Assembly: GCA_903851195.1 (NCBI GenBank)
Contig: CAINNJ010000023.1
Span: 62,001 to 126,000 of the forward strand
Origin: an uncultured Acidobacteriia bacterium
GTDB taxonomy: Bacteria; Acidobacteriota; Terriglobia; Bryobacterales; Bryobacteraceae
Length of the DNA stretch: 64,000 nucleotides
Reading direction: 5' to 3'
Shown here: positions 3,045 through 31,219 of the stretch, piece by piece
How positions within the stretch are numbered: the first letter of the stretch is position 1
Layout: each line of letters opens with the position of its first letter
Translations under genes and position numbers: made by a program
The notes under the pieces: generated by a model
The model's database searches: none
What the model saw: only the letters and a program-made list of their open reading frames with translations
Told to the model about the DNA's origin: nothing

Positions 3045-4730
3045 ATGAACTCGAATCAATTGCTCTCTCTGGCTCCGGCTGACATCCTCGTCATCGGAGC
3101 TTACTTTGTGACCGTCCTGGGGATCGGTTTCTATCTGAAACGGTTCACGACGACCGGCGACGACTTCTTCCTTGCCGGGCGGGACATGACGGCCTGGATC
3201 GCCGGGCTGAGCTTCGTATCGGCGAATCTGGGCGCTTTGGAACTGATGGGCTGGGCCGGCGCCGCTTATCAGTACGGAATCCTCGCCACGCACTGGTACT
3301 GGATCGGCGCTATCCCGGCCATGTTGTTTCTCGGCATCGTGATGATGCCGTTCTATTACATCTCGAAAACCCATTCGGTGCCCGGTTACCTGAAGTTGCG
3401 CTTCGGTGAGGCGGCCCGGGCCACGTCGGCCATTTCGTTCGGGCTGATGACGATTCTGATGAGCGGCGTCAACATGTACGCCATGGCGCTGATCATGCAG
3501 GTGATCCTCGGCTGGGACCTTTCCTTCAGCATCTGGGTCTCGTCGCTGACCGTGGGCGTGTACGTGGTCCTGGGCGGTCTGCTCTCGGCTATCTTCAACG
3601 AGGTTTTGCAGTTCGTGCTCATCTGGCTGGGCGCGCTGGTGATCACGATTGTCGGCCTGATTGAGACCGGCGGCTGGTCCGGCATGATGGCGCGGGTTCA
3701 TCAAAACACGCCGGGCGCGGATTATACACACCTTTGGAGCACGCTGGGGCACTTCTCGGACAATCCAATGGGAATTCACTGGACCGGGATCGTGCTGGGC
3801 CTTGGGTTCGTGATTTCATTCGGCTACTGGACCACCGATTTCCTTGTCGTGCAGCGGGTGCTTTCGGCGAAGGATCTCCGGTCGGCGCGCATGGCGCCCG
3901 TCATCGGCGCGGCTTTCAAAATGGCCGTACCCCTGATCGTGATCGTGCCGGGTCTGCTTGCGCTCGCCGTGTTGCCGTTCAAACTGGTGGGGGCGGACGA
4001 GGCGGCGGTGAACCACATGCACAGCTACAACGAAGTGCTGCCGCTGATGCTGGCTCGTTACTGCGGCCCCGGACTGCTGGGGCTGGGAATCACCGCGCTG
4101 GTGGCCGGATTCATGTCCGGCATGGCGGGGAACGTGACCGCGTTCTCCACCGTCTGGACCTACGACATCTACCGCGCCCTGATCCGGAAGAACGCGTCCG
4201 ATGAGCATTACGTGAGCATGGGCCGGTGGTCGACCATCGTTGGCCTGCTGATCAGCATCGGGACCGCGTACCTGGTGATGAGGTCCGCGGGAATCATGGA
4301 TTACGTGCAGGCGCTCTTCAGTTTCTTCATCGCGCCGTTATTCGGCACGGTCGTCCTGGGCATGTTGTGGAAGCGTGCGACGCCCGCGGGCGGCTTCTGG
4401 GGCTTGCTGCTCGGCACCATCGCTTCCATCGGGATGTGGGCCTGGGTTAAGCTCGATCCTTCCGCGCTCCGCTACGTGGCCATGTCGCAGGACGCGAAAG
4501 CGATGGCCGAGGACATGTACCGTGCGCTCTGGTCCTGGATCGTGTGCGTCCTGGTCACGGTAATCGTGAGCTACGCGACGAAGCCGCTCCCGGAATCGCA
4601 ACTGGTTGGTCTGGTATACGGGTGCACGCCGATCCCGTCGGACGGCGATCTCGCGCTTTACCGAAAGCCGCAGTTCTGGGCTGTGCTGGTGGCGATGGGA
4701 CTCGTCATACTCAATATTGTGGTTTGGTAG
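3045..4730 (+). CDS. Sodium:solute symporter (SSS/SGLT family), probable sugar importer
   Basis: This is an inner-membrane transporter of about 561 residues with some 13-14 hydrophobic helices. It shows SSS-family features: FFLAGRDMTAWIAGLSFVSA near the N-terminus, GAAYQYGI, and later GFMSGMAGNVTAFSTVWTYDIYR, the region that normally carries the Na2 site and substrate contacts. The ATG at 3045 is chosen over an upstream in-frame ATG at 3012 because TTGAGG lies just before it. The family couples sodium entry to uptake of sugars, inositol or similar solutes. Downstream are a small membrane protein, a sugar isomerase, a ribulokinase and an epimerase, so the likely cargo is L-arabinose or a related sugar. 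That substrate is inferred from context. Confidence 0.88.
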   Translation: MNSNQLLSLAPADILVIGAYFVTVLGIGFYLKRFTTTGDDFFLAGRDMTAWIAGLSFVSANLGALELMGWAGAAYQYGILATHWYWIGAIPAMLFLGIVMMPFYYISKTHSVPGYLKLRFGEAARATSAISFGLMTILMSGVNMYAMALIMQVILGWDLSFSIWVSSLTVGVYVVLGGLLSAIFNEVLQFVLIWLGALVITIVGLIETGGWSGMMARVHQNTPGADYTHLWSTLGHFSDNPMGIHWTGIVLGLGFVISFGYWTTDFLVVQRVLSAKDLRSARMAPVIGAAFKMAVPLIVIVPGLLALAVLPFKLVGADEAAVNHMHSYNEVLPLMLARYCGPGLLGLGITALVAGFMSGMAGNVTAFSTVWTYDIYRALIRKNASDEHYVSMGRWSTIVGLLISIGTAYLVMRSAGIMDYVQALFSFFIAPLFGTVVLGMLWKRATPAGGFWGLLLGTIASIGMWAWVKLDPSALRYVAMSQDAKAMAEDMYRALWSWIVCVLVTVIVSYATKPLPESQLVGLVYGCTPIPSDGDLALYRKPQFWAVLVAMGLVILNIVVW

Positions 4731-4773
4731 GCGACGGGATTTGGCAGGCGAACGGGGTTTGGCAGGCGAACGG
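4722..4773 (+). repeat. Three tandem copies of a 17-18 bp repeat at the symporter 3' end
   Basis: Three near-identical units follow each other: GTTTGGTAGGCGACGGG (4722-4738), ATTTGGCAGGCGAACGGG (4739-4756) and GTTTGGCAGGCGAACGG (4757-4773). The symporter TAG stop lies inside the first unit, which therefore also encodes the last residues. The units look like recent slippage duplications of the gene end. They lengthen the gap before the next start codon at 4787. Confidence 0.85.
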
Positions 4774-4786
4774 ATGGTAGGACAAA

Positions 4787-5008
4787 ATGCATGAACAAAA
4801 GGGTATGATTTCGATCTGGTTCTTCATCGGCGTGCTTCTGCTGTTTTACGGCGTCGTGATTCTCGGCCAGGGACTCTATGAGCTGAGTTCTCCGCCCGCA
4901 AAGCCGGTGGTGCTTGCGAGCCTGCATATCGGCATCTGGTGGGGAATCCTTCTGCTTGTTCTGGGCGGCGGGTATACGCGTCACTTCTTTCCGGGGAGGA
5001 ATCGTTAG
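4787..5008 (+). CDS. Small two-helix membrane protein between symporter and isomerase
   Basis: I do not recognise this 73-residue protein from its sequence. It has two hydrophobic helices, one around residues 9-27 (ISIWFFIGVLLLFYGVVILG) and one around 44-61 (LHIGIWWGILLLVLGGGY). A short loop containing SSPPAKPV separates them, and the tail is basic. It lies 56 bp after the symporter stop and 3 bp before the isomerase start, so it belongs to the sugar operon. Some SSS transporters have small two-helix companion proteins (for example DUF4212 and DUF997 families), and this could be an analogous subunit. That role is inference from size, topology and position. Confidence 0.7.
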   Translation: MHEQKGMISIWFFIGVLLLFYGVVILGQGLYELSSPPAKPVVLASLHIGIWWGILLLVLGGGYTRHFFPGRNR

Positions 5009-5011
5009 CTC

Positions 5012-6409
5012 ATGGTTTTCGGACTCATTATCGGCAACAGAGGTTTTTTCCCGGATCATCTGGCGGCAACCGGGCGCAGCGACATGATCGCCGCCATCGA
5101 AAGTGCGGGACACACAGTCCTGGCCGTGGATCCCGGTGAAACGAAATTCGGCGCCGTCGAAACCCGTGCCGAGGCGCGGAAATGTGCCGACCTTTTTCTG
5201 AAGAACGCGCGGACAATCGATGGCGTCATAGTCTCGCTGCCGAATTTCGGGGACGAGCGCGCCGTGGCGGAAACCCTTCGCATGGCGGATCTGCACGTGC
5301 CCGTGCTGATCCAGGCGACCCCCGATACCCCATCGAAGATGTCCATTCGCGACCGCCGCGACAGCTTCTGCGGCAAAATGTCGGTTTGCAATAACCTCAC
5401 GCAATACGGCATTCCGTACTCGCTGACAACCCTGCATACGGAAGCTCCCGATTCCGAAACGTTCCGTAAAGACCTCGCCTGGTTCGCGGGGGTCTGCCGG
5501 GTGACGAAAGGGCTGCGGCGTCTCCGGATCGGCGCCATCGGAGCGCGCCCTGCCGCCTTCAATACCGTCCGCTACAGCGAGAAACTGCTCGAAGCGAGCG
5601 GGATCTCGGTCGAGACCGTCGATCTGTTCGAGATCATGGGCCGCATCCAGAGGATGAAGGACGATCATCCCGGCGCGCAGGCGAAGCTCGCGTCGATCCA
5701 ATCCTATGTTTCGACGAACGGGATTCCGGGCGCGGCGTTGCTGAAAATGGCGAAGCTCGGCGCCGTCATCGACGAGTGGATGGCGCAGAACGAAGTCACC
5801 ATCAGCGCGATTCAGTGCTGGACCGCGATGGAAGAGTTCTTCGGCGTGGTTCCCTGCACCGTGATGAGCATGATGAGCGAAAAGCTGCTATCGAGCGCGT
5901 GCGAGGTGGATATCGCGGGCGTGATTGGGATGCATGCACTGGCGCTCGCCTCGGAGACGCCGAGCGCGCTGCTCGACTGGAACAACAACTACGGGGACGA
6001 TCCGGATAAGGCCGTCTGCTTTCACTGCAGCAATCTTCCGAAGCATTTCTTTGCCGAAGTGAGAATGGATTTTCAGGAGATCATCGCGGGCACCGTGGGC
6101 AAGGATAATACTTTCGGAACCTGCGTGGGCCGGGTGAAGAGCGGCCCCATGAGCTTCGCGCGTTTTTCGACCAATGACCGCGCCGGGAAAATCAGCGGAT
6201 ATGTGGGCGAAGGCGAATTTACCAACGATTCGCTGCAGACGTTCGGAGGCGCCGGAGTAGTCCGGATTCCGGAAATGCAGAAACTGCTGCGATATATCTG
6301 CGAGAACGGTTTCGAACATCATGTGGCCGCTAATTTTTCGACAACGGCAGGCATGGTGTATGAAGGGACTACGAAATACCTGAACTGGGATGTTCACTAC
6401 CACCGGTAA
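5012..6409 (+). CDS. L-fucose/L-arabinose isomerase family protein
   Basis: This 465-residue cytoplasmic protein resembles the L-fucose isomerase-like family (COG2407 type) more than canonical AraA. Recognisable stretches are the N-terminal GLIIGNRGFFPDHLAATGR, then DGVIVSLPNFGDERAVAE, IGAIGARPAAFNTVRYSEKL, and AIQCWTAMEEFFGVVPCTVM, followed by EVDIAGVIGMHALALAS. Conserved acidic residues in the last two regions (E in TAMEEF, D in EVDIAG) would hold the catalytic metal. The family interconverts aldoses and ketoses. The ribulokinase and ribulose-5-phosphate epimerase that follow make L-arabinose to L-ribulose the most economical reaction. Fucose or another pentose remains possible, because kinase specificity cannot be read directly. 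Good family match; substrate inferred. Confidence 0.85.
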   Translation: MVFGLIIGNRGFFPDHLAATGRSDMIAAIESAGHTVLAVDPGETKFGAVETRAEARKCADLFLKNARTIDGVIVSLPNFGDERAVAETLRMADLHVPVLIQATPDTPSKMSIRDRRDSFCGKMSVCNNLTQYGIPYSLTTLHTEAPDSETFRKDLAWFAGVCRVTKGLRRLRIGAIGARPAAFNTVRYSEKLLEASGISVETVDLFEIMGRIQRMKDDHPGAQAKLASIQSYVSTNGIPGAALLKMAKLGAVIDEWMAQNEVTISAIQCWTAMEEFFGVVPCTVMSMMSEKLLSSACEVDIAGVIGMHALALASETPSALLDWNNNYGDDPDKAVCFHCSNLPKHFFAEVRMDFQEIIAGTVGKDNTFGTCVGRVKSGPMSFARFSTNDRAGKISGYVGEGEFTNDSLQTFGGAGVVRIPEMQKLLRYICENGFEHHVAANFSTTAGMVYEGTTKYLNWDVHYHR

Positions 6410-6457
6410 GAGGGGTGTTGCGGGGCGAGGCCTGTTGACAAGAGGATCGGTAAGCGT

Positions 6458-8011
6458 ATGAGTGTCGTTGCGGGAGTAGATTTCGGAACGCTGTCGGTGC
6501 GCGTGTCTCTCTTCGACAGTGCCCTTGGACGCCTGAGTTTCGCGGTCGCGGAGTATCCGCTCCGCCGCTTGAAGACCGATCCGGATTACGCGACGCAGAG
6601 CCACGACGACCATATGCGCGCTCTCGTGGCTGCCATGCGCGAGGCTGTTGCGAAGGCAGGCATCTCCGGCCACGCGATTGAGTCGGTCGCTATCGACACC
6701 ACGGGATCGAGCGTGGTTCCCGTGGACGCGCGCATGCAGCCCGTCGACGATTATTACCTCTGGTGCGATCATCGCGCCTGGCAGGAGGCGGATCAGATCA
6801 CGCAGTCCGCGCGCGCGGCCGGTTTGCCGGCGCTGGCGTGGTGTGGCGGCACGTACTCGAGCGAATGGGGCTGGGCCAAACTCCTGCACTGGCTGCGCCA
6901 CAATCCGGAGAAGCGCGCCGCTGCCGCGAGCGCCTTCGAGCATTGCGACATGGTCGCCGCTACGCTGTGCGGCGTCACAGACCCTGCTCTGGCGAAACGC
7001 AGTGTGTGCGCGATGGGCCACAAGTGGATGTGGAACGAAGCGCTGGGAGGCCTGCCGCCCGAGGACTTTCTTACGGGAGTAGATCCGTTACTGAGGGGCT
7101 TCCGCGACAAGCTTGCCGGGGAGTATGCGGCCTCCGACCGGATCGCGGGTTCGCTTTCCACCGAATGGGCTGACCGCATGGGTCTGAAGCCCGGAATTCC
7201 GATCCCCGTGGGAGCGTTCGACGCCCACTGGGACGCTTTGGGCGCGGGCGCCGCGCTGGGCGACGTCGTCAATATTGTCGGCACCTCGACTTGCATCATT
7301 GCGATGAGCGAGGGCGCCGATTTGATCCCGGGCCTGTGTGGCGTCGTCTGCGGATCCGTGGATCCTCGGCTTACCGGGATTGAAGCGGGCATGTCGGCAA
7401 CGGGCGACGTCTTCGATGCCATCGCGCGCAGGGCGGGGACTTCGCCGGCGGCACTCTCGGCGGGTCTCGAGACCTACCGGGCGGGCCAGACGGGGCTGCT
7501 TCGGATGCCGTGGGATAACGGCGACCGGACGATCCTCGTAAATCCTGAAGTCAGCGGCGTTACCCTCGGCTGGAAGTTGACGCATACCGCGCAGGATGAG
7601 CTTTTCGCCGCCGTAGAGGGCGCCGCGTTCCACACCCGCGTCATTCTGGAGCACATGGAACGGCATTCGGTGCCGATTGTTCGGGTGATTAATGGCGGGG
7701 GAATCCCCCAGCGCAATCAGGTTCTGAATCAGGTGTACGCGAATGTGTTGAATAAACCGGTTCTCGTCCCGGCGGCGGACGTGACCAGTCTCGGGTCCGC
7801 CATCTTCGCGTTCCTTGCGGCAGGCGCTTTCGCGAATGTTCAGGAAGCGCAGCGGGCGCTCTGCCCGGATTACCGCATCTTTGAACCCCGCCAGGAGACA
7901 CGCGCTGCTTACGATGAGTTGTTTGCGCATTTCACCGGGCTTTACTTCGAGTTCGGACGAGGCGCGCTGATGCCGGCGCTGCGCCGCATCGCACGGGAGG
8001 CACTGTTATGA
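6458..8011 (+). CDS. araB: Ribulokinase (FGGY carbohydrate kinase)
   Basis: This 517-residue FGGY-family kinase phosphorylates L-ribulose with ATP in the cytoplasm. The first ATPase motif is at the start (VVAGVDFGTLSVRVSLFD) and the phosphate motif AIDTTGSSVVPVD lies near residue 85. Substrate-contacting motifs typical of ribulokinase follow: YLWCDHRAWQEAD, CGGTYSSEWGWAKLLHWLR and PVGAFDAHWDALGAGA, the last containing the catalytic aspartate region. The C-terminal nucleotide-binding part includes GTSTCIIAMSEG and RVINGGGIPQRNQVLNQVYA. The length is slightly below the 560 or so of E. coli AraB. Its stop overlaps the next start as ATGA, coupling it to the epimerase. Ribulokinase is strongly favoured over other FGGY kinases. 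Confidence 0.92.
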   Translation: MSVVAGVDFGTLSVRVSLFDSALGRLSFAVAEYPLRRLKTDPDYATQSHDDHMRALVAAMREAVAKAGISGHAIESVAIDTTGSSVVPVDARMQPVDDYYLWCDHRAWQEADQITQSARAAGLPALAWCGGTYSSEWGWAKLLHWLRHNPEKRAAAASAFEHCDMVAATLCGVTDPALAKRSVCAMGHKWMWNEALGGLPPEDFLTGVDPLLRGFRDKLAGEYAASDRIAGSLSTEWADRMGLKPGIPIPVGAFDAHWDALGAGAALGDVVNIVGTSTCIIAMSEGADLIPGLCGVVCGSVDPRLTGIEAGMSATGDVFDAIARRAGTSPAALSAGLETYRAGQTGLLRMPWDNGDRTILVNPEVSGVTLGWKLTHTAQDELFAAVEGAAFHTRVILEHMERHSVPIVRVINGGGIPQRNQVLNQVYANVLNKPVLVPAADVTSLGSAIFAFLAAGAFANVQEAQRALCPDYRIFEPRQETRAAYDELFAHFTGLYFEFGRGALMPALRRIAREALL

Positions 8012-8703
8012 CTCTGGAGGCACTGCGGGCGGAGGTCCTCGAGGCGAATCTGTCTTTGGTTCGGCACGGTCTTGTAGTCGGGACGTTCGGGAATGCGAGC
8101 GGAATCGACCGCGATCTTGGCTTGGTTGCAATTAAGCCCAGCGGGGTCGATTACAACGCGCTGCAGGCTGGCGATCTGGTGATCACGGACCTCGACGGGC
8201 GGGTCGTGGAGGGCGAGCTTCGGCCGTCTTCCGATCTGGCAACGCACCTCGCTTTGTACAAAGCTTTTCCGGGAATCGGAGGAGTTGCTCACACGCACTC
8301 CAGGCATGCGACTGCCTGGGCACAGGCCCGCAGAGAGATTCCGTGCTTCGGGACGACGCACGCGGACTATTTTCGAGGCGCGATTCCCGTAACCGCCGAC
8401 ATGCAGGACGAAGAGATCGCGACGGATTACGAAAAAAATACCGGTTTGTGCATTGCGCGCCGGTTTGCGCAAATCGATCCGATGACGATGCCCGCGGTTC
8501 TGGTCGCCGGGCATGCTCCATTTACGTGGGGCGGGAGCCCCGCTGATGCCTCGCACAATGCGTTCGTGCTGGAAGAGATTGCGCATCTGGCCTTTATGAC
8601 GATATCGATCGACAGCAGGGCAAATTCGATCACGGATTCGCTGCGGGACAAGCACTTCCTCAGAAAACACGGCTCGACAGCCTATTACGGGCAACCGAAG
8701 TAA
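8008..8703 (+). CDS. araD: L-ribulose-5-phosphate 4-epimerase
   Basis: This 231-residue class II aldolase-fold enzyme converts L-ribulose 5-phosphate to D-xylulose 5-phosphate, feeding the pentose phosphate pathway. The zinc site is visible as H95 and H97 (HTHSRHATAWAQ) plus H169 (LVAGHAPFTWG). Asp76 (RPSSDLATH) and Asp120 (THADYF) occupy the positions of catalytic or binding residues in E. coli AraD. Length and the GTFGNAS phosphate-binding motif fit the family. The ATG overlaps the ribulokinase stop by four bases. With the kinase and isomerase it completes a three-step L-arabinose-type route. Confidence 0.95.
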   Translation: MTLEALRAEVLEANLSLVRHGLVVGTFGNASGIDRDLGLVAIKPSGVDYNALQAGDLVITDLDGRVVEGELRPSSDLATHLALYKAFPGIGGVAHTHSRHATAWAQARREIPCFGTTHADYFRGAIPVTADMQDEEIATDYEKNTGLCIARRFAQIDPMTMPAVLVAGHAPFTWGGSPADASHNAFVLEEIAHLAFMTISIDSRANSITDSLRDKHFLRKHGSTAYYGQPK

Positions 8704-24154: not shown

Positions 24155-24305
24155 CTCCCTGAGATAGTTCCCGCACAGAAGCCCGTCCATTCTCTCTGTC
24201 TTTGTGCAGGGAGTGTCTTCACCGATGTTTTTATCGGTGCTATTCCTCTCGACTGATCCTTCTTCTCCGCTGCAAGCTGAACTTCAGGCGGAGAAGAAGG
24301 TTCGA

Positions 24306-26756
24306 ATGCGACGGGATTTCATATTCTTACTACGTGGTTTGGTTGGGCTGGTGCTTTGTATGGAGGCTTCTGCCCAGGGAGTGCCGCAAATCAGCGGTCT
24401 GGTGAATACCGCTACGGGACGCAGCGCTTCCAGTGTGCCGGTGGCAGCCCGCGGTTCGCAGGTCAGCATACTGGGCGCGAATCTCGCCGCGGTCACGCTC
24501 TCGGCTCCCGTGCCTCCGCTTTCCAATTCGCTCGGTGGCACCCAGGTATTTGTCGGGGGTATTGCGGCGCCGATTCTGATGGTTTCGCCGGGACAAGTCG
24601 ATGTGCAGGTTCCCTTCGAATTGCCGGATTCGCTGTCGTTCGATGTCGTGGTGCGCACGGCGGCCGGGGATAGCGCGCCGCTGAACACCGTCCTCCTGGC
24701 GCAGGATCCGGGCATCTTCAGCGTCTCCAGGCAGGGTGCGGCCGTGAGTTCCTCCAATCCGATCTTATCCGGGGACGCGATCACGATCTACGCCACGGGC
24801 CTCGGTGCCGTGATGCCGTTCGTTCCCTCCGGTCAGGCCGCGCCCGCATCGCCGCTGGCCGTAACGGCGATCCCCGCCGTGGTCAAAGTCGCGGGGCAGA
24901 TCGCGCAGATCACGTTTGCCGGACTCGCCCCGCAGCAGGCGGGGGTCTACCAGATTAATGCGATAGCGCCTATGCTCGCTGCCGGGTCCGCCACGGACGT
25001 GACTCTGGAGGCCGGTGTGGTGCCGGGTCTGACCGGGCCACCGGGACCCGCCGGCCCTGCCGGACCGGCGGGGGCCATGGGGCCAGCCGGAGCAACGGGG
25101 CCGGCAGGCGCCACGGGTCCGCAGGGACCGCCGGGAACGCAAGGCGCTTCCGGCGCGGCGGGTCCCGCAGGACCGCAAGGACCTCCCGGACCAGCTGGGC
25201 CATCAGGGCCGGCCGGACCCCAGGGGCCTTCCGGATTCGGATTTCCCGGTCCGCAAGGCGCTCAGGGGCCCGCCGGATCGCCCGGTCTGATCTGGCGCGG
25301 CGCGTGGCAGGCAGGAACGACCTACGCCGCGAACGACGCCGTGAGTTTCAACGGCGCCAGTTACATCAGCGCGCGGTCGGGAAACGCCGGTCAGCAGCCG
25401 AATTTAACCATAGGAGCCTCCTGGAACCTGCTCGCCCAGGCAGGCGCAACGGGCGCTCCAGGGTCCGCCGGTCTCAACTGGCGAGGTGTCTGGGTCGCCG
25501 GTACAGTTTACGGCCTCAACGATGCCGTACAGTTCGACGGAGCGAGCTATGTCAGCATCCAGCGCGATAACGCGGGACAACCGCCGGACATCACGCTTGG
25601 CGCCGCATGGAATCTGGTGGCGCGACAGGGCGCAACCGGTCCGGCCGGGCCGGTGGGTCCGCAGGGTCCCGCCGGGCTCACCGGCGCAACAGGTCCCACA
25701 GGCCCGCCGGGGCCTTCTGGGCCTACGGGTCCCAGCGGTGTTACCGGCCCCGCCGGCCCGACGGGACTGGGTTTCACCTGGCGTGGTATCTGGCTTCCCG
25801 GTACCACGTATGACCTGAACGACACCATCTTTTTCAATGGCTCGGCTTACGTCAGTACCCGCGCCGGAAATACGGGAAATCTGCCTGGCGGCAGTCCCGT
25901 TTTCTGGAGCCTGCTTGCCGCGCAGGGTGCCACTGGAGCTACGGGCGCCGTGGGCCCGACCGGCATACAGGGACCGATCGGATTGACGGGTCCGGCGGGA
26001 CCTGCCGGCCCGGTTGGACCGACTGGCGCGACCGGTCCGATCGGCCCGCAGGGAGTTCCGGGCCCAACCGGTCCTGTTGGTCCCGTCGGCATCAACATCG
26101 CCAATCCGGTTATCTGGTTCTACTCCAACACGTACCGGGCGGGCGATGTGGTCAACTACAACGGTTCCGCCTGGCTGTCTCTCGTCGGTAATAACTTCGG
26201 CCTCACCCCCGGGGATGACGACCGAATCTGGGCCTTGCTCGGCAAAGCCGGACCTGCCGGCCCCGCCGGTGCAACCGGGCCCGCTGGTGCAACCGGACCC
26301 GCTGGCCCCCAAGGTCCTGCCGGACCACAGGGACCCGCCGGCACTACCGGCGCGAACGGCGCGGGCGGTCAGCTCTGGATCTCCTCGAACCCCTCGCCCC
26401 CAGGCTTAACCGGCTGGTATTACCCTCCGGGATCCTCGCAGGATGCCTCGGCGGGCGGCAACGTGGATGCCTCGGTGTACGCCAATGAGTCGGAAACGAT
26501 CTTCGGGGCTTGTACGCTCGATGCGATGCAGGTGAAAAACTTCCTGTACAACCCCGTCACCGCGATCACCGTTCAGCTTTTCCGGAATGGCATCGCGCAG
26601 CCGTCGTTCCAGTGCTCGACCAGTGCTGCCGCCGGAGCGGCCTGTATCGTCGCCGGACAGGCCGTTGCGGTCGTCCCCGGCGACACCATCGCACTGAAAG
26701 TTTCCGGCGCGGGCGGAAAAGGGGGGTACGTTTTCTCCGCGCTGCACTGCCGTTAA
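24306..26756 (+). CDS. Collagen-like mosaic surface protein with TIGR03437-like N-terminal domain and four WRG-type modules
   Basis: This is a secreted protein of about 816 residues, starting at 24306 after GGAGAAGAAGG. A signal peptide is followed by a 'Solibacter' TIGR03437-like region to about residue 240 ([24 protein letters not shown]-like [33 protein letters not shown]). Collagen-like Gly-X-Y blocks at about 241-326, 442-490, 541-595 and 649-688 alternate with four modules of about 52 residues (about 327, 389, 491 and 596). The first three have WRGxW..GTxYxxNDxxxFxGxxYxS, and the fourth is degenerate. These modules resemble small carbohydrate-binding domains of the chitin-binding type 3 / CBM5-12 style. 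A globular tail (689-816) with several Cys could nucleate trimers. A surface adhesin role is inferred. Confidence 0.85.
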
Positions 26757-27316
26757 CGCGCGAACACTTTCCAGAAATACCCGACCACCTGCTCCGGAAA
26801 ATCCGGAGGCATGTTCTTTTCGTCAATCATCCGGCGATGAACAATCGGCCCGATCAGGAGATCCATGGCGAATTCCGGATCCACATCGTCGCGCAGGCCG
26901 CCGGATACGGACGCCTGTTCCAGTAACCGCTGCACCATTTCGCGGCGTGGCTGAAAAGCGAAATCCTGCAGGGCACGTCCGAATGCCGGATTGCTCATCG
27001 CGTAGCTGATGACGTGCGGCCAGATTTTTGCCAGTTCCTGCGATTTCGCTTTGTAAGCAAGGTGCCGCAAGAGTGCCGTCAGATCGGCCCGCGCATCGCC
27101 GGAATTAAACTCCGGGTACTTCTCGGAGAGGCGGCGGATCACATCGAGCAGCAGCGCATCCTTGTTGCTCCAGTGCTTGTAAACCGTCGCCTTGCTGACC
27201 CCCGACGCGGCCGCGATGGCATCCATCGTGGCGCCCTCCAGGCCGCGTTCGGCAATCAGATCATAGGCTGCCTGGAGCACCTTCTCGTGTGCGTCTTTGC
27301 TGGGCGTTCTTGCCAA
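26753..27316 (-). CDS. TetR-family transcriptional regulator
   Basis: This protein of about 187 residues has the TetR N-terminal DNA-binding domain: [20 protein letters not shown], then [20 protein letters not shown] and [16 protein letters not shown] helical ligand domain follows, with [19 protein letters not shown] near the end. No in-frame ATG precedes the HTH, so the TTG at 27316, 17 bp after the permease stop, is the best start. It lies last in the ABC exporter operon and probably represses it through the inverted repeat at 28875-28894. Its stop overlaps the stop of the convergent collagen-like gene. Confidence 0.87.
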
Positions 27317-29152: not shown

Positions 29153-30175
29153 CTAAAAACCGCTCTTTGCCCCGCCCCGATCCTTCGTGGCGTAATAGCC
29201 CATACGGGTACGGGCGACTGCGGTTCCGGAACTTTTTACCGAAACCTTGATGGGCCGGAACGATCCATCGAGAGCCTGGTTCGTGGGCGTGTAGGTGATG
29301 GTGTACTGATTCCGAATGTCGTGAGCCACTTCGTGAGCGATCTGCTCCACCTGTGTCACATCTTTCGGATAGAAAGCGAGACCGCCGGTGCTGTCCACCA
29401 GCAGCGCGAGCGCGCGCTTTGCCTTGCTGGCTTCCTTCTTTTCTTCTTCCGTCAGCAGTCCGATCGCGTAGATCAGCACATCGTTCTGCTGCGCTTCCCG
29501 CACCAAAGCCTCCAGGCCGACGATGCTCGCATTGTCGTTGCCGTCGGTGACCACCAGAATCACCTTTTTATCCCGCTTCGCCTTCTTCTTGAGGTGATCG
29601 ATGGACATTCGGATCGCATCCCGCATGGCTGTGCCGCCGCGCGAATCGATTTTGGCGAGTCCCTGCTCCAGCATCTTGATATCGCTGGTGAAGTCGGCGT
29701 CCAGATACGCTTCATCGTTGAAATTCACGACGAATGCCTCGTCCTGCGGGTTGGAATCCCGCACCAGCGTCAAAGCCGACTGTTCCACCGCCTGGCGCTT
29801 CTCCCGCATGCTGCCGGAATTATCGATGATCAGGCCCAGGGAAACCGGCACGTCTTCGTGCTTGAAGTCTTTGATCTGCTGCAGCACGCCGTTCTCGAAA
29901 ACCGAAAAGGCGCTGCGGGTCAGATTCGTGACCAGGTGACCGGATTTATCGGTGACCGTCACATTCAGCGGCACGAGGCGCGTCTCGGAGGTAAAGACCG
30001 CGTCGTCCGCCTCCGGTTTCGCCTGGCCCTCCGGTTTCGCCTGACTTTGTGGCGGAGGCGGCGGAGGCGGAACCTGCACCGGCTGAATCTGCGTAAAGAC
30101 AACGACCGGGGCCAGCATCGCTGCCGCCCCGGCCAAAAACGTCGATCTCGTAAGTAAACTACTGCGTCGGCGCAT
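29153..30175 (-). CDS. VWFA-related domain secreted protein (acidobacterial type)
   Basis: This protein of about 340 residues starts at 30175 with an Arg-rich signal peptide (MRRRSSLLTRSTFLAGAAAM). A polyproline stretch and a short PEGQAKPEA repeat follow. The domain then opens with SETRLVPLNVTVTDKSGHLV, and the MIDAS metal site is DNSGSM in VSLGLIIDNSGSMREKR; Thr and Asp ligands are in GGTAMRDAI and VTDGNDNAS. The C-terminus ends in IRNQYTITYTPTNQALDGSF and a GYYA motif. This order matches the TIGR03436 acidobacterial VWFA family. It overlaps the upstream paralogue by 17 bases. Confidence 0.88.
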   Translation of the reverse strand: MRRRSSLLTRSTFLAGAAAMLAPVVVFTQIQPVQVPPPPPPPQSQAKPEGQAKPEADDAVFTSETRLVPLNVTVTDKSGHLVTNLTRSAFSVFENGVLQQIKDFKHEDVPVSLGLIIDNSGSMREKRQAVEQSALTLVRDSNPQDEAFVVNFNDEAYLDADFTSDIKMLEQGLAKIDSRGGTAMRDAIRMSIDHLKKKAKRDKKVILVVTDGNDNASIVGLEALVREAQQNDVLIYAIGLLTEEEKKEASKAKRALALLVDSTGGLAFYPKDVTQVEQIAHEVAHDIRNQYTITYTPTNQALDGSFRPIKVSVKSSGTAVARTRMGYYATKDRGGAKSGF

Positions 30176-31178
30176 AATAGCCGGTTCTCCAGAAGGGATG
30201 AAGCTGTGGCAGGCCGCGCGGCTGGATAATTTTGACCACAACCTTACGATATTTCCCGTCGCGCGTCGCGTTCGTCGGGCTATATCCAAGAACGTACTGA
30301 TTGCGCAGTTCGATACCGATTTTCGCCGCCACGTCGGGCAATTCGTTCAGGTTCTCGACAATAAAATGACGGCCGCCGGTAGGTTCCGAAATATCCGTCA
30401 GAAGCCCCGGCCCGGAAAGTTCCTCCGGCGTGCGTCCGCGGGACGAGATCGACTCGTAAATTCCAATCGCGTAAATCTGGACGTCGGCTTCTTTCACAAA
30501 ACTCTTTAATTCGGATTCCGTATACCGGCTGCTGTTGTCGCCTCCGTCGGAGATGACCACCAACGCCTTACGCGGATTGTGTGCCTTCTTCATTGTACGA
30601 AGCGCCAGCAGTACACCATCCAGAAGGGCGGTCCGGCCCTTCGATTGAGTGAACGTCAGACGGTTCTGGATCTCTTCCAGATTGTGCGTGAACGGCGTGA
30701 CCAGTTCCGGACGGTCGTTGAACTCGACCAGAAACGCTTCGTCCTCCGGATTCGCGGTCTTAAAGAATTCGGCGACCGACTGCCGGGATTTCTCCAGTTT
30801 CGATCCCATACTGCCGCTGGTGTCGAAAACGATCCCGATGGAGAGCGGAGCATCTTCGCTGCCAAACGAAACAATCTTCTGTTTCACCTTGTCTTCGAAG
30901 ATGTCGAAAACCTCCTGATCGAGACCGGTCACGAACCGGTTCAGCGGGTCGGTCACGGTTACCGGAATCAGGACAAGATTGGTGTCGATGCGAATATTCG
31001 CTTTGGGTTGCGGTATCGAAGGCGCATCGCCCGCTTTGGCGCGGGGGATAATATTGACGTTAGCGCTAACGCCCGGGTCCTGCGCGGACAGACCTGCGGC
31101 CATGAAGACCGCACAGACGAACGGCCCGGCGCAAAGACAGGACACACTTTTCAGGACATTGGCACTGCGGGATGGCAT
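30159..31178 (-). CDS. VWFA-related domain secreted protein (acidobacterial type)
   Basis: This paralogue of the following gene, about 339 residues long, starts at 31178 after AAGGGAAG. A signal peptide ending near LSAQ precedes IRIDTNLVLIPVTVTDPLNR and a VWFA domain with the MIDAS sequence DTSGSM (IGIVFDTSGSMGSKLEKS), GRTALLDG and VISDGGDNSS. The end RNQYVLGYSPTNATRDGKYR matches the TIGR03436 pattern. Its promoter region is shared with the divergent kdsB gene. The ligand is unknown; a role in extracellular binding is inferred. Confidence 0.88.
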   Translation of the reverse strand: MPSRSANVLKSVSCLCAGPFVCAVFMAAGLSAQDPGVSANVNIIPRAKAGDAPSIPQPKANIRIDTNLVLIPVTVTDPLNRFVTGLDQEVFDIFEDKVKQKIVSFGSEDAPLSIGIVFDTSGSMGSKLEKSRQSVAEFFKTANPEDEAFLVEFNDRPELVTPFTHNLEEIQNRLTFTQSKGRTALLDGVLLALRTMKKAHNPRKALVVISDGGDNSSRYTESELKSFVKEADVQIYAIGIYESISSRGRTPEELSGPGLLTDISEPTGGRHFIVENLNELPDVAAKIGIELRNQYVLGYSPTNATRDGKYRKVVVKIIQPRGLPQLHPFWRTGYYAPTQ

Positions 31179-31219
31179 CTGGTGCTTCCCTTTCTGCCTG
31201 GAGTCTAGCACAAGCCGCT

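Follow-up and report, generated by a model that had tools for sequence, protein, structure and literature searches.

The gene described here lies in the window, the whole 64,000-nucleotide stretch of DNA that was analysed. Its open reading frame is intact on the plus strand, running from an ATG at 24306 to a stop codon at 26754–26756, and encodes 816 amino acids. An initial annotation had described Gly-X-Y runs alternating with four modules between a TIGR03437-like head and a Cys-containing tail. This layout is real: the modules are about 50 residues long, the head scores far above the TIGR03437 cut-off and the tail contains four Cys residues. The features are the following:

24290..24300, +, purine-/AG-rich stretch GGAGAAGAAGG, likely ribosome-binding site (by eye)
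24306..26756, +, entire gene, 816 amino acids and stop codon (open reading frame)
24306..24374, +, signal-peptide-like N-terminus, cleavage guessed at ASA/QG (by eye)
24423..25022, +, TIGR03437 head, residues 40–239 (141.7 bits against a cut-off of 29.05)
25026..25292, +, collagen block 1, 24 and 5 triplets with a break of 2 residues (Gly-X-Y count, Pfam)
25293..25442, +, module 1 (WRGAW...), residues 330–379, CBM5/12 fold (30.5 bits; AlphaFold2 pLDDT 96.3)
25443..25478, +, collagen block 2, 4 triplets (Gly-X-Y count)
25479..25628, +, module 2 (WRGVW...), residues 392–441 (21.8 bits; viral-only profile 1.2e-17)
25629..25772, +, collagen block 3, 16 triplets (Gly-X-Y count)
25773..25925, +, module 3 (FTWRGIW...), residues 490–540 (18.4 bits; viral-only profile 3.5e-21)
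25926..26096, +, collagen block 4, 19 triplets (Gly-X-Y count)
26097..26240, +, module 4, divergent, without WRG, residues 598–645 (23.4 bits; viral-only profile 5.7e-8)
26241..26375, +, collagen block 5, 15 triplets (Gly-X-Y count)
26376..26753, +, four-Cys tail, residues 691–816, predicted C1q/TNF-like jelly roll (pLDDT 86.3; Foldseek; leave-one-out profile 55 bits)

No sigma-70-like promoter was found at the gene. A single terminator-like stem (26792–26808) compares with 2.3 expected by chance, and we therefore claim no terminator. A lipoprotein anchor was considered and rejected by eye, Cys18 of the signal region being preceded by LVL without a lipobox. The head includes an IPT/TIG match (PF01833, 21.0 bits with a cut-off of 20.9), and most of the 38 places that the whole protein matches in its own genome are matched over this head. 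This 'Solibacter' domain, its many genomic matches and the initial annotation point to Acidobacteriota as the phylum. The family name of TIGR03437 says C-terminal, whereas the domain is N-terminal in the window protein, as it is (by eye) in the TIGR03437-like heads of three relatives, L117, L119 and L120. TIGR03437 is named in no paper that we found in the open-licence PMC literature.

Six Gly-X-Y runs of at least four triplets (24, 5, 4, 16, 19 and 15) add up to 83 triplets, and a further match of three triplets falls within the tail. Shuffling the protein 2000 times produced no run longer than 8 triplets, and the Pfam Collagen model matches the whole protein with an E-value of 4.4e-33. Only one of the 249 collagen residues is charged; Pro occupies 48 of the 83 X positions, and Ala or Thr 44 of the 83 Y positions.

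The eight neighbours scanned with Pfam encode a sigma factor, a thiolase, an aminotransferase, a TetR regulator, two ABC transporter parts and two VWA proteins, with no phage structural gene among them. Two tandem VWA-domain proteins are encoded on the minus strand at 29153–31211. The flanking aminotransferase is present in 16 of 19 genomes of the same genus, own genome included; its 15 other stretches, several of which end soon after the aminotransferase, contain no match to the window protein at 1e-10. In the three same-genus genomes where both flanks are visible (L160, L161 and L164) the gene is absent every time; it is an accessory gene. Since two of these genomes carry other accessory genes at the same site (L161 at 4242–5642, transposase-like by eye, and L164 at 3997–8640), this insertion site may be a small hot spot.

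The modules and the chitin-binding tryptophan

The window modules belong to CBM5/12 by profile and by a confidently predicted fold. Pfam CBM_5_12 (PF02839) matches the whole protein with 58.1 bits (E 8.6e-16), and module by module the scores are 30.5, 21.8, 18.4 and 23.4 bits, so that module 1 alone exceeds the cut-off of 26.2. Apart from these four modules the profile has no match in the genome at E-values up to 0.1, and it is matched by 50 of 60 members of the module family. The pattern WRGxW..GT.Y..ND...F.G, which had been recognized from the start, holds in modules 1–3, while module 4 diverges (ANPVIW..SNTY..GD..NYNG). At the DNA level modules 1–3 share 58–60% identity with one another and 38–44% with module 4. 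Shuffled non-collagen parts of the protein (n = 1000) reached at most 12.1 bits with a module profile to which the window modules had themselves contributed.

AlphaFold2, given module 1 and 59 relatives, produced a model with a pLDDT of 96.3. Foldseek returned 80 matches to this model in the PDB at E-values up to 10, none of them at or below 0.001, and the best E-value was 0.023 with a probability of 1.00. Among the best solved matches is All3316 from a contractile injection system of Anabaena (7b5h). The tail fibre of cyanophage A-1(L) (8kec) matches with a TMq of 0.74 and an rmsd of 1.8, and the chitinase CBMs 2d49, 1e15, 1ed7 and 4hmc with a TMq of 0.63–0.69 and weak E-values. Fibres/baseplate of Agrobacterium phages 7-7-1 and Milano are also among the matches. 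Predicted viral proteins gave 33 matches with E-values of 0.001 or less (TMq 0.76–0.91); 12 of these carry names of tail or collagen proteins, and most of the others have no informative name. The carbohydrate-binding fold originally suspected is thus borne out, the modules matching CBM5/12 both in sequence family and in predicted structure.

The title of a 2013 study by Hara, cited in PMC8449059, names Trp687 and Gln679 as chitin-binding in ChiA1. If the first residue of 1ED7 is residue 655, as we assume, Gln679 and Trp687 fall on positions 25 and 33 of the sequence as printed, which are indeed Gln and Trp. In our alignment the Trp687 column is occupied by Q, Q, N and L in modules 1 to 4. We also assembled 167 non-redundant modules, drawn from 61 fetched proteins and from window module 1; the column contains W in one of the 156 modules with a residue there, and W, Y or F in three. 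As a control, the ChiA1 domain was used as a query against 396 genomes of the phylum, which yielded 10 places in 8 genomes. One of these is a module that lies within collagen and has no such Trp. The other 9 are ordinary CBM12-like domains and the Trp is kept in 8 of them, although this control is biased to Trp retention because five of the eight are near-identical orthologues and the query itself has the Trp. A measure less dependent on alignment is the number of aromatics between the two conserved aromatics, which is 0, 0, 1 and 1 in modules 1 to 4. Across the family this stretch contains a W in 8 of 144 cases and any aromatic in 62 of 144, and a W is found in 8 of 9 canonical CBM stretches (those of 1ED7 and 4ILV and the seven distinct ones that the nine control domains contain once two repeats are removed).

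Y340 and W373 of module 1, with their equivalents, are invariant across the four modules and align with the Tyr and the final Trp of 1ED7. According to the available portion of PMC8449059, CBMs of the CBM5/12 type bind chitin via exposed aromatics and have two further aromatics in the core; by our own mapping of the sequences, Y340 and W373 are taken for this core pair. The modules thus retain the CBM5/12 fold but no longer have the Trp platform known for it. The sugar-binding role first proposed for the beads is not supported as far as the known CBM mode is concerned, the chitin-linked ChiA1 Trp being missing from all four modules. A conserved polar loop takes the place of the former Trp site (N in 45 of 91 bacterial modules) and position 330 is aromatic in 142 of the 167 modules; judged on sequence, either this loop or the WRG aromatic could be a candidate for a new ligand site.

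The C-terminal tail

The tail, with its Cys residues at 736, 770, 780 and 815, was modelled as a single chain (pLDDT 86.3) and met C1q/TNF-like jelly rolls in Foldseek. There were 178 matches with E-values of 0.001 or less, led by EDA-A1 (1.6e-6) and including C1q-like 3, cerebellin, collagen X NC1 and the F-BclA tip. The match is loose, since TMq is only 0.35–0.51 (rmsd 4.3–9.3) among the best 50 of the list, which also hold beta-glucosidase, ExsFA and a phage fibre. A Pfam scan of 15 tails at E-values up to 1 detected no C1q or TNF model, leaving the tail without a Pfam family, and a sequence search of solved structures with the tail gave nothing significant (best E 0.98, a TNF ligand). The window tail obtains 55 bits with a profile built from the tails of 14 relatives, itself left out, and none of 2000 shuffles exceeded 11.2. 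C1q and TNF proteins are trimers, and several are found at the ends of collagen rods. Given a tail predicted to have this trimer fold, which often follows collagen, the window protein is likely a trimeric beaded rod. The rod, the beads and the trimer-type tail of the initial annotation hold up in this respect.

Among 61 near genomes, ten, the own genome included, have a match to the tail profile, and four of these ten contributed tails to it. In six of the ten no module was matched, so that tails of this kind occur also without beads. The same genome encodes a second, probably secreted collagen-like protein in a frame of 980 residues (L125; G000:C32:99000-107500). It has a CBM96-like head (by eye), ~187 Gly-X-Y triplets and one interruption of the form ATVxVGT...FNFTIPLG, and it contains no CBM-fold beads. 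Its tail is related to that of the window protein with 29.5 bits (bias 14.1); the profile alone links the two, BLASTP of one tail against the other being not significant (E 0.074 and 16). L125, together with the six near-relative genomes that possess the tail and no modules, indicates that a rod of this kind can do without beads.

Relatives in bacteria and phages

The build of the window protein is not unique. The module pair occurs in 8 of 61 genomes of the own and near groups, own included, and the module is detected at an E-value of 1e-6 in 43 of 396 genomes of the phylum (own included), corresponding to 14 of 211 genera, with 29 of the 43 in one family. We fetched 30 module regions from 27 genomes, i.e. 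20 of the 42 others from the phylum search and all 7 others from the near groups; they contain 32 reading frames, some cut by contig ends, with 123 modules. All 32 have Gly-X-Y runs, which flank 112 of the 123 modules on both sides, and the number of beads per frame varies from 1 to 14. The 14 beads of L099 (G262:C7:1000-11000) lie in a single open frame of 2029 residues. The search for module and collagen together, suggested at the outset, thus shows that the combination recurs in other genomes. A contig profile scan with a two-row query gave 3 loci from 201 candidate stretches. A protein from a Phycisphaerales MAG has the same build as the window protein with 6 beads, one from an Acidobacteriaceae MAG combines beads with collagen, and a Cytophagales protein has one bead without collagen. 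Among the matches listed, no paper in open-licence PMC was found to describe the bead and collagen build; PMC12220804 names collagen fibres of polinton-like viruses, and CBM5/12 beads are not named in its available portion.

The ends of these relatives vary. One tested head is CBM96 (E 3.3e-19) and many look similar by eye; L119, one of the three with a TIGR03437-like head, matches TIG, and three other tested heads had no Pfam match at 0.01. The tails comprise, by eye, Cys jelly rolls, propeller-like repeats and S74-like ends. A second type of collagen interruption of ~37 residues, resembling ATVxVGTxTTGAAGxxAxVTNSGTxxAAVLNFTIPQG, was found by regular expression in 18 copies in 10 of the 32 relatives (L097, L099, L105, L107, L108, L110, L111, L112, L114 and L119). 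It differs from the module by eye and may be another collagen joint; a second kind of interruption in such rods would be expected if interruptions are joints.

The occurrence of the same bead type in phage fibres goes beyond the initial account. Searched singly, modules 1–3 match phrog_5073 (E 4.2e-8, 2.1e-6 and 1.4e-5), and the best phage family for module 4 is phrog_26622 (E 1.5e-4). The module pair matches 50 of 50,697 phage records, all at less than 60% identity. We examined 25 viral loci with 29 reading frames and 115 modules: 17 frames contain collagen, 12 of the 29 bead-bearing proteins have no Gly-X-Y run, and 49 of the 115 modules are flanked by Gly-X-Y on both sides while 66 are not. 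The bead is hence not tied to collagen. All four window modules are detected, with E-values from 3.5e-21 to 5.7e-8 (database size 1000), by a profile for which viral modules alone (76) were used; the viral loci behind it had been found with a query that contained window modules.

All3316, which we take to be Cis13, is present as 18 chains in 7b5h. The tail-fibre-like Cis13 forms trimers, as described in the accessible part of PMC8894136. A 27-residue stretch of A-1(L) gp33, residues 139–165, matches the module in sequence (E 0.0041). In the text available from PMC10966104, gp33 is a trimeric short tail fibre whose 'joint' domain (111–215) binds baseplate wedges, and the match is located in this domain and not in the cell-wall-binding domain.

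A putative secreted fibre and its alternatives

We consider it somewhat probable that the protein is secreted and forms a homotrimeric fibre, with beads that serve chiefly as joints or knobs and might also have a novel ligand. The gene product would be exported and assemble into a rod, the C1q/TNF-like tail gathering three chains, starting the triple helix and setting its register. The four CBM5/12-fold beads would then interrupt the collagen helix almost without a linker on either side, a configuration that should place three beads side by side around the axis at each break. There they could act as trimeric joints or knobs that make the rod stiffer, set its spacing or close it off, apparently like the related modules of phage tail fibres, and any ligand would not be chitin bound in the known way. 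The TIGR03437 head at the opposite end might serve as an anchor or binder, and we infer for the whole fibre a function in surface attachment or in a matrix. The placement in the A-1(L) joint domain, the Cis13 trimers and the second type of interruption favour a joint or knob. On the other hand, the solved fibres number no more than one or two, and a structural placement would be compatible with binding. Also weighing against the proposal are the weak Foldseek E-values of the module among solved structures, the loose match of the tail, the viral beads outside collagen, the rods that do without beads and the polar loop as a candidate ligand site.

Each of the closest known systems shares part of this build. 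Collagen-bearing phage tail fibres (phrog_5073, 'Collagen triple helix repeat' proteins of uncultured Caudovirales) have the same bead subfamily, often between Gly-X-Y runs, but they are virion parts with other ends, where a signal peptide or a TIGR03437 head is not expected. CBM5/CBM12 domains (ChiA1 1ED7, CjCBM5) have in common with the window modules the fold and the conserved Tyr and Trp, presumably the core pair; they are carried by an enzyme, whereas the window modules sit inside collagen, have lost the known chitin-binding Trp and have added WRG-type N-terminal and W.LLA C-terminal edges. BclA/F-BclA and C1q-type collagens likewise combine a collagen rod with a C-terminal C1q/TNF-like domain. 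In comparison, the window rod is poor in charge and broken by CBM-fold beads, and its tail is a sequence family of its own, with four Cys and without Pfam C1q. The EHEC prophage proteins EPclA-D also join collagen to non-collagen modules: in the available text of PMC3368898 the two collagen domains of EPclB are split by a Pf2 repeat and EPclA trimers are demonstrated by experiment, but the modules named are PfN, Pf2, PfC and a coiled coil, not CBM5/12. The eBAP3 fibres of an eCIS have collagen-like shafts, binding domains and a 'TNFR-like' domain; they differ by beta-propeller lectins and as injection-system parts, with CBM5/12 beads not named in the accessible part of PMC12923769. Scl/SclB and Lcl adhesins, finally, resemble the window protein by a long Gly-X-Y domain in a surface protein, although it stays below their NCBIfam equivalog cut-offs (102.4 against 325, 92.5 against 500 and 78.5 against 400).

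As a more tentative and rather doubtful proposal, bacteria and phages might share a kit for interrupted collagen, in which a chitin-binding fold serves as a trimeric joint that restarts the helix in register and heads and tails are swapped freely. The window protein would be a secreted bacterial product of this kit, and the fold an unrecognised structural element of non-animal collagens, not a sugar binder.

A multivalent lectin rod is an alternative that we judge rather unlikely, in which the beads would bind a glycan other than chitin (in exopolysaccharide, in a fungal or plant wall or in the cell's own envelope) at a site other than the CBM5/12 aromatic platform, such as the conserved NxGNTP-type loop or the added W/Y/F at 330. 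The homology to CBM5/12, the relatives with as many as 14 beads in one protein, the CBM96 head of one of them, and the polar loop and common aromatic at 330 would all suit such a rod. However, the known platform residues are lost and residue 330 may instead belong to the core or to an interface. In addition, the distal CBM of A-1(L) gp80, possibly of another type, showed no host-cell binding in the part of PMC10966104 at hand.

We regard as improbable a domesticated phage tail fibre or the gene of an unrecognised prophage. Bead and collagen do occur together in many phage fibres, W at position 330 is commoner in viral (41 of 76) than in bacterial modules (12 of 91) and the gene is an accessory insertion, but a signal-peptide-like start and a TIGR03437 head speak against this reading, and the relatives have other heads with signal-like starts. 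The eight non-phage neighbours disfavour an intact phage gene in particular. Low-complexity Gly-X-Y coding with chance module similarity and no folded fibre is hardly credible: GC-rich repeats can expand, and the collagen runs have a GC content of 0.73–0.79 (window, 0.61), but modules that have diverged to 38–60% DNA identity keep their pattern and are confidently modelled, the module is spread over many genomes and the tail is conserved, all of which already contradicts this reading.

If the beads of the proposed secreted fibre are joints, carbohydrate-binding labels of the Pfam type on phage and bacterial fibres would mislead. The window protein and its relatives would then illustrate a way in which bacteria construct long collagens with interruptions, and the module would be a compact bead, open to testing, with which triple helices could be joined. 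For the Acidobacteriota, the family probably represents surface or matrix fibres with exchangeable heads.
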